From Halorhabdus sp. CBA1104 (GTDB lineage: Archaea; Halobacteriota; Halobacteria; Halobacteriales; Haloarculaceae), in assembly GCF_009690625.1 (NCBI RefSeq), contig NZ_CP033878.1, positions 1,364,001-1,428,000 of the forward strand: a stretch of 64,000 bases of DNA, written 5' to 3'. Shown one piece after another: positions 1 to 55,217 of this stretch. Position numbers and translations under genes: made by a program. Each line of letters opens with the position of its first letter. The stretch's first letter is position 1. The notes beneath the pieces were generated by a model. The model ran no database searches. It was given only the letters and a program-made list of their open reading frames with translations, and had not been told where the DNA came from.

Positions 1-33
1 GCGGCGGGAGTTCGCCGAGCGAAGCGAGTCTAT

Positions 34-69
34 CGGGAGTGAGCGATCACGAAGTGATCGCGATCTACG
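34..69. repeat. tRNA-linked hairpin element, copy 1
   Basis: The stem GCGATCAC (43-50), loop GAA (51-53) and stem GTGATCGC (54-61) form a perfect 8-bp hairpin. It is flanked by CGGGAGTGA (34-42) and GATCTACG (62-69). The second copy at 55073-55108 has the same flanks and loop but a different self-complementary stem. Both copies lie beyond the 3' end of a minus-strand tRNA gene. Function is unknown; an RNA processing, terminator or mobile palindromic element is possible. Confidence 0.7.
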
Positions 70-107
70 CCGCGGCCGCTGAGTGAGGAACACAGTGAGG
101 AACGAAG

Positions 108-129
108 CGGACGCGGCGGGATTCGAACC
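108..129 (-). repeat. Duplicated 3' end of tRNA-Arg (att-like repeat)
   Basis: These 22 bases are identical to 222-243, the acceptor and T-arm 3' end of the tRNA-Arg gene plus its discriminator position, in the same orientation and 114 bp away. Duplicated tRNA 3' ends are the usual scar of tyrosine-recombinase integration, but no integrase is visible and the gap is far too short for a functional element. A remnant attachment site or local duplication is the likely reading. Confidence 0.65.
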
Positions 130-221
130 GAGTGGAGACGGTCGACCTCGCTCCGCTCGGTCGCTACGACTCCCCGGGTTCGAATCCCTTGGTCCTCCAC
201 TCCTCACTGCGTTCGTCGTTA

Positions 222-294
222 CGGACGCGGCGGGATTCGAACCCGCGATCGAGGGGTTAGGAACCCCTCGCCCTATCCGCTAGGCCACGCGTCC
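222..294 (-). tRNA. tRNA-Arg (anticodon CCT)
   Basis: The minus strand folds into a full cloverleaf: acceptor GGACGCG paired with CGCGTCC, D arm GCCT/GGGC, anticodon stem AGGGG/CCCCT with loop TTCCTAA giving anticodon CCT, and T arm GCGGG-TTCGAAT-CCCGC. The discriminator is G. It reads the AGG codon. No CCA is encoded. Its 3' end is duplicated at 108-129. Confidence 0.95.
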
Positions 295-54656: not shown

Positions 54657-55146
54657 GTCCGGTTGTTCTGTAGAAACTGTCTTTACAGTGTCGACGCACT
54701 GTCTCGAACTGCCAGTTGTCCGTCCGCCTCGATAGGTACCACCCAGAGTTGTCCACTCCGCCAGTGTCGGACAGTCGAGAGTATCGGCCGGGAGTGAGCA
54801 AACGCACAGCGTTTGCGAGCTACGGGCGACACACGACCACAGGGAGTGCACCGAAAGACTCGCTTCGCTCGCCTTTCGAGCCCTCGTCGCGCTTCACGCG
54901 ACTCGGCACCGGCGTTTCTTTATCCGCGCGAGCAAAGCGAGCGCGGTTCACTCGGCGCGACTATCGGGAGCGCCGAGGATGTTTTTCTCCGCGTTTTTGC
55001 GAGTGAGAGGTGCCCGCAACGAACGTAGTGAGCGAGGACACCCGAGCGAGTAAAAAGAGGGAGTGCGCCGGCCGGGAGTGAGCGAAGCCGAAGGCTTCGC
55101 GATCTACGGGCGGCGCATCGAATGACGACTGTAGGGAGGAATGAGA
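54657..55146. other. Intergenic region with low-complexity repeats, no gene seen
   Basis: About 490 bases without a credible gene. It carries many short GAGCGA/CGAAGCGAG repeats (around 54800-55060), the second hairpin element (55073-55108) and a 14-base repeat (55064-55077) of the tRNA-Gly 3' end. The composition resembles the region at 1-110, which is also next to a tRNA. Confidence 0.6.
55073..55108. repeat. tRNA-linked hairpin element, copy 2
   Basis: Stem GCGAAGCC (55082-55089), loop GAA (55090-55092) and stem GGCTTCGC (55093-55100), flanked by CGGGAGTGA (55073-55081) and GATCTACG (55101-55108). The first copy (34-69) has the same flanks and loop with a different but self-complementary stem. 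Located 39 bases beyond the 3' end of tRNA-Gly. Confidence 0.7.
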
Positions 55147-55217
55147 TGCGCCGGCCGGGAATTGAACCCGGGTCGAGAGCTTGGAAGGCTCTTGTCATAC
55201 CACTAGACCACCGGCGC
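55147..55217 (-). tRNA. tRNA-Gly (anticodon TCC)
   Basis: The minus strand forms a cloverleaf: acceptor GCGCCGG with CCGGCGC, D arm GTC/GAC, anticodon stem AGAGC/GCTCT with loop CTTCCAA (anticodon TCC), T arm CCGGG-TTCAATT-CCCGG, discriminator A. It reads GGA and GGG. No CCA is encoded. Its 3' end is partly repeated at 55064-55077. Confidence 0.95.

Follow-up and report, generated by a model that had tools for sequence, protein, structure and literature searches.

The hairpins behind tRNA genes in a 64,000-nt window of the Halorhabdus sp. CBA1104 genome belong to a real, widespread and apparently undescribed family of units at tRNA ends, which points to a new class of miniature integrating elements. 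Each hairpin terminates a larger inserted unit, whose outer stem is formed in part by a duplicate of the 3' end of the tRNA. We consider it reasonably probable that the units are non-autonomous mini-insertions at tRNA attachment sites, carrying the hairpin at their distal end and likely moved in trans by a haloarchaeal tyrosine integrase. A literature search, with subscription papers mostly outside its reach, gave no description of these hairpin units.

Both 36-nt sequences reported in the initial annotation of the window (positions 34-69 and 55073-55108) are present as described, with shared flanks, a GAA loop and perfectly paired 8-bp stems. Each lies, as had been stated, past the 3' end of a tRNA gene, here on the minus strand, namely tRNA-Arg-CCT at 222-294 and tRNA-Gly-TCC at 55147-55217. 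The duplicated tRNA 3'-end pieces noted nearby were also recovered, a 22-nt piece at 108-129 that repeats 222-243 and a 14-nt piece at 55064-55077 that repeats 55147-55160. Chance low-complexity sequence is ruled out as the source of the hairpin, since the pattern GGGAGTGAGC..GCGANCTAC occurs three times in the window, compared with zero occurrences across 100 shuffles. A third copy, overlooked at first, was found at 54789-54824, and a fourth at genome position 2565901-2565932, beside tRNA-Gly-CCC. These four are the strict copies in the 2.63-Mb genome, all located a few hundred bases or less 3' of a tRNA. The features of the window are as follows.

1-33, minus strand: module D with another tRNA 3'-end copy, cut by the window start
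34-69, minus strand: hairpin core of element A, reading GTAGATC - GCGATCAC/TTC/GTGATCGC - TCACTCCC on the tRNA strand, with an inner stem of 8 bp and a loop of 3 nt
69-79, minus strand: X' arm, which forms the 5' side of the outer stem and is complementary, in inverted orientation, to the 3' end of tRNA-Arg (minus-strand sequence GCGGCCGCGGC)
80-107, unstranded: spacer of the A unit, rich in palindromes; its counterpart in genome G004 is inverted relative to the window spacer
108-121, minus strand: 14-nt copy of tRNA-Arg nt 60-73 (CGGACGCGGCGGGA on the plus strand), a unit boundary within the 22-nt exact repeat 108-129
118-188, minus strand: element B, another unit type, frequently next to A in arrays, with a hairpin enclosed by the inverted T-arm copies GGGATTCGAACC ... 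GGTTCGAATCCC
222-294, minus strand: tRNA-Arg (CCT), whose nt 60-73 (222-235 on the plus strand) are the duplicated core X
54789-54824, minus strand: third hairpin core, GTAGCTC - GCAAACGC/TGT/GCGTTTGC - TCACTCCC
54834-55063, unstranded: palindrome-rich module between the two Gly-side A hairpins
55064-55146, minus strand: whole A unit at tRNA-Gly, a 69-nt insert plus the 14-nt tRNA 3'-end copy at 55064-55077
55073-55108, minus strand: second hairpin core, GTAGATC - GCGAAGCC/TTC/GGCTTCGC - TCACTCCC
55147-55217, minus strand: tRNA-Gly (TCC), whose 3'-terminal 14 nt (55147-55160 on the plus strand) are the duplicated core

Read along the tRNA strand, the element consists of spacer - X' - GTAGnTC - GC N6 nnn N6' GC - TCAC - X. 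The X segment typically repeats 14 nt from the 3' end of the adjoining tRNA (nt 60-73, from TCCC to the discriminator), and X' is its inverted complement, with which it pairs as an outer stem. The length of the exact match between copy and tRNA end peaks at 14 nt (35 of 115 instances, and 65 of 115 for 14-18 nt). Units are non-coding and 77-168 nt long, with an insert part of about 70-80 nt and no room for an integrase gene. Target duplication accounts for X and not for X', which lies within the insert, yet matches the local tRNA, a feature unexplained by plain site-specific integration. The tRNA-Ala and tRNA-Pro genes share one unit type, in which both X and X' match the local tRNA and GAAC, GACC or GTAC stands in place of GTAGnTC. 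Because of this replacement, and because the outer stem continues into T-stem positions, a degenerate tRNA with GTAGnTC as the remnant of a D-arm was rejected. Tandem GA pairs had suggested a K-turn or C/D-like RNA on the antisense strand; this reading was dropped for lack of support. The second unit type, element B (118-188 in the window and many other loci), is widespread behind tRNA-Arg-CCT, has a longer tRNA copy of about 22-24 nt and occurs as a B-B tandem in G009.

Insertion can be followed in detail at tRNA-Ala-GGC, where the alignment compares one filled site (G004) with two empty ones (G001 and G002). Relative to the orthologous empty site, G004 carries a 92-nt insertion composed of 78 nt plus a 14-nt copy of the tRNA end. 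Beyond the terminal copy, the G004 sequence matches what immediately follows the tRNA in G001 and G002, with alignment scores of 228 and 174 (shuffle maxima 40 and 48, respectively), whereas the unit itself does not align to these flanks (19 and 26). At many other loci, insertion is implied. Gain of units rather than their loss is our inference, as precise loss would look identical. A CRISPR-like repeat array lies near the unit-bearing tRNA-Ala-GGC of G004 (L252, positions 1-990), where it was seen as repeated peptide stretches in open reading frames.

Among Halorhabdus genomes, the same tRNA-Ala-GGC gene is followed by U2 in G000, U1-U2 in G003, B'-U2 in G005 and B-U1-U2 in G006, with identities at this locus of 81/87 for U1 and from 62/86 to 68/80 for U2. 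The additional units are located on the tRNA side, as in stack-like growth. Together with the empty site, this stacking supports the option of a small mobile palindromic element raised in the initial annotation. At tRNA-Arg-CCT, the order of units is permuted: B-A-D in G000, B-A-A''D in G001, A-D-b in G002, A''-A-BD in G004, A-BD-A in G006, A''D-b in G003 and none in G005. Given this permutation and a partial degeneration of the units, homologous recombination across short repeats has probably helped to shape these arrays. In 17 of 62 cases, a run of at least four T begins immediately after the terminal X, compared with 4 of 62 that have one anywhere before the hairpin, as if insertion had displaced the tRNA from its own terminator. 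At L204 (G102), X' mismatches its own X and is identical to the X' of a unit at Arg-TCT elsewhere (L213, from a different genome), which is what transfer of a unit would be expected to leave; a search of G102 for the source of this arm found no tRNA with that 3' end.

The family was traced across Halobacteria by two routes. A strict pattern that omits the tRNA-derived arms matched in 19 of 59 relatives. One of the strict-pattern loci retrieved proved to be no hairpin; in the set of 31 loci, perfect hairpins are always on the tRNA strand and lie 3' of a tRNA or, once, beside tRNA 3'-end copies left behind an island. This last locus (L020 in G019) has no tRNA within 1.5 kb, yet it is surrounded by tRNA 3'-end copies. 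The covariance-model search that had been proposed as a check was positive for 97 of the 145 genomes sampled from the order, and clustering at tRNA 3' flanks was observed, with 78 of the 93 distinct model matches examined located 3' of a tRNA on the same strand; this model (R1) contains the tRNA-derived arms and could favour tRNA flanks, and the strict pattern without them yields the same linkage. In a GTDB scan, all palindromic 34-nt matches belong to Halobacteria, nearly all of them 3' of tRNAs, and the non-palindromic matches in other lineages were discarded as chance. Target tRNAs include Arg (CCT, CCG, TCT, TCG), Ala, Gly, Pro, Ser and Lys. Element A is also found behind tRNA-Lys, within tRNA arrays of a Natribaculum plasmid and of a contig from G010, a member of the window's family. 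The tRNA arrays at L164 (G010:C27:208000-227999) and L165 (CP095391.1) are dense, with up to 22 tRNAs in 20 kb, and on both replicons (a plasmid and a 313-kb contig) the hairpin is found only behind tRNA-Lys.

Two further kinds of hairpin were observed elsewhere. At least 20 dispersed copies of a related 32-nt core (GGGAGTGAGCGGATCGGAGATCCGCGATCTAC) lie mostly away from tRNAs in the metagenome-assembled genomes QS_8_69_73 and QS_4_69_225 (loci with this core include L036-L038, L047, L049, L054, L060, L070, L075, L082, L084, L132 and L152). They are flanked by two further hairpins, with about 110 nt conserved, and look like a non-tRNA branch that spread through one genome. Similar hairpins on the opposite strand are positioned directly upstream of tRNA-Gly at L187, L199, L200, L202, L212, L239 and L241, where the outer arm corresponds to the tRNA 5' end in reverse complement (GCTCACCACCGGCGC).

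Both stems of the hairpin covary. In 46 aligned copies, whose flanks were fixed by the search pattern and which were filtered for at least 5 of 6 variable stem pairs, 13 of 17 pairs changed on both sides, and the covariation score was 0.430, whereas shuffles gave 0.142 and slid partners no more than 0.122. A wider, model-fitted alignment of 92 distinct rows agrees. Even without the stem-pair filter, the true halobacterial matches are palindromic, whereas chance matches elsewhere are not. Across 134 distinct cores, the inner stem comprises 762 Watson-Crick, 10 G-U and 32 mismatched pairs, compared with 805 Watson-Crick, 46 G-U and 3 mismatched pairs in the acceptor stems of tRNAs at the same loci. 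The G-U pairs are thus rarer in the hairpin (10/772 vs 46/851, Fisher p=3.8e-6), although the tRNA control is under constraints of its own and related copies are not independent. Since selection on an RNA would make G-U intermediates commoner, their scarcity is suggestive of pairing in DNA or of correction of one arm from the other. A conserved hairpin with covarying stems is thus supported, whereas the earlier proposal that the stem changes point simply to selection on structure is not supported in that form; the G-U depletion is better matched by pairing at the DNA level or palindrome correction than by selection for pairing in an RNA.

The same depletion weighs on the idea that the unit is a functional RNA, a tRNA-like trailer hairpin co-transcribed with the tRNA that would aid its 3' processing or termination. 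Such an RNA would have the shape of an acceptor/T-stem minihelix with a hairpin cap, and the outer stem indeed derives from the tRNA 3' half and ends at the discriminator base, a T-run often follows it and covariation is strong. Orthologous tRNAs nevertheless do without a hairpin unit (tRNA-Ala in G001 and G002, tRNA-Arg in G005), sister species vary in unit number and order, and there was no Rfam match to the hairpin, only the tRNAs themselves scoring above the gathering score in the Rfam 15 search for known ncRNA families. We regard this possibility as quite improbable. Passive debris at tRNA flanks, in which palindromic intergenic DNA and the tRNA 3'-end copies of old proviruses would be rearranged through slippage of the replication machinery, template switches at hairpins and short-repeat recombination in the absence of any dedicated mobile unit, accommodates other observations. 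Halorhabdus species do differ by permuted unit order and inverted spacers, many modules are degenerate or truncated, true integrase islands use the same tRNA ends, and G-U depletion fits palindrome correction by template switching. Against it, many genera and families share the core GTAGnTC-hairpin-TCACTCCC and its Ala/Pro variant, with the spacing conserved, and one unit type is found both at tRNA-Ala and at tRNA-Pro, its X and X' exchanged to match the tRNA at hand. Debris would preserve neither the core spacing nor the local X and X', and this explanation is rather unlikely.

In the reading that we favour, mini-insertion, a tyrosine integrase is proposed as the agent from the place and size of the core. 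In G019, an intact tRNA-Arg-CCT is followed by a 28-kb island with tyrosine integrase genes (the catalytic-domain match lies below the Pfam cut-off), a 13-nt tRNA-end repeat that forms its att repeat (CCCGGCACGCCCG) and a B-A array. Haloarchaeal pleolipo-like proviruses have att sites of about 13 bp at tRNA 3' ends, and integration has been described at tRNA-Pro (with a 13-bp att), tRNA-Arg and tRNA-Ala (PMC7911831, PMC8371274). The DNA behind tRNA-Ala in G001 and G002 is predicted to encode a CxxC-type protein like one reported beside provirus att sites. As the core and its location nearly coincide with these att sites of the island and the proviruses, we infer that a haloarchaeal tyrosine integrase acting in trans is the likeliest agent. 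SNJ2-type or pleolipo-like integrase proviruses and islands resemble the units in their position at the tRNA 3' end, with the intact tRNA kept on one side and a direct repeat of its 3' end as flank. Their core is nearly the same (13 bp in proviruses and the G019 island, 14 nt in the units); the units, in contrast, measure about 80-110 nt, are non-coding, lack an integrase gene of their own and have a hairpin with an outer arm complementary to the tRNA end, which is absent from the attR of the elements examined. No autonomous element with the hairpin at its end was found: the attR of the G019 island has none, nor does the end of an integrase-bearing element in L217. Neither a true copy nor an attP was present in IMG/VR or phage records that would indicate a viral origin.

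Under this mechanism, a non-coding cassette with an insert of about 70-80 nt would integrate at the tRNA 3' end, the hairpin forming its distal end, and would leave a direct copy of the tRNA's last 14 nt (nt 60-73) at the far side. New units would enter next to the intact tRNA and displace older ones outward, the outcome being short arrays of hairpin units separated by tRNA 3'-end copies. The tyrosine integrase would work in trans on these non-autonomous units, for which a 92-bp circle would be a very small double-stranded recombination substrate. The hairpin may function as a recognition arm, or it may form in single-stranded DNA and act as a structure there, and X' may be kept complementary to X either by correction of the folded arms against each other or by selection on X'.

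Other mobile systems share parts of this anatomy. Integration of a casposon-like or CRISPR-adaptation-like type, in which Cas1 would duplicate 14 nt of its target at the tRNA 3' end, is suggested by the casposase of A. boonei, which reads a TCAAATC motif at the tRNA-Pro 3' end and gives 14-15-bp duplications there (PMC6614799), and by the growth of hairpin arrays on the leader (tRNA) side, as in CRISPR arrays and in tandem casposon insertion. Still, the units are non-coding, Cas1 (PF01867) was undetected in several unit-bearing genomes, such as G007, G011, G013 and G014, and the casposon duplication begins 8 bp after TCAAATC, whereas that of the units begins in the T-loop or immediately after it. 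By eye, no terminal inverted repeats were seen in the G004 insert or the Arg units. Cas1 or casposase as the agent was rejected in view of the genomes where Cas1 was undetected, and we consider it very improbable indeed.

PATEs, IS200/IS605-type elements of Haloquadratum and REP/BIME sequences are, like the units, short, non-coding, palindromic and probably mobilised in trans. PATEs and other IS605-derived elements are defined by near-terminal palindromes and the absence of target duplication (PMC3119063). In contrast to the dispersed PATEs, hairpin units sit at tRNA ends and have a 14-nt duplication, which sets them outside that definition. REP elements carry GTAG near the hairpin, as does the tRNA strand of the units. 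In integrons, attC sites have conserved boxes around a paired stem of free sequence, and cassettes are added at a fixed anchor with shuffled order. By analogy, hairpin units would be alike in their conserved boxes, paired free-sequence stem, anchor-side additions and shuffled order, although they are gene-free and anchored at a tRNA, and the likeness rests on anatomy and anchor-proximal growth. An integron-like system, in which the tRNA 3' end would anchor non-coding cassettes added and reshuffled by a recombinase that reads a folded strand, with a cassette end folded from the tRNA 3'-end copy and its inverted complement into a hairpin site, is an unlikely reading.

The tRNA 3' ends are classic landing sites of archaeal mobile elements, and accumulations there are usually dismissed as remnants. 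In about two thirds of the order's sampled genomes, a hairpin unit that is conserved and covaries recurs behind many tRNAs, in arrays that appear to record insertions one after another. This offers a testable system for the use of host att sites by minimal elements and for the matching of an inner palindrome to the local tRNA. These units also bear on whether folded-strand or CRISPR-like insertion exists beyond integrons and CRISPR.
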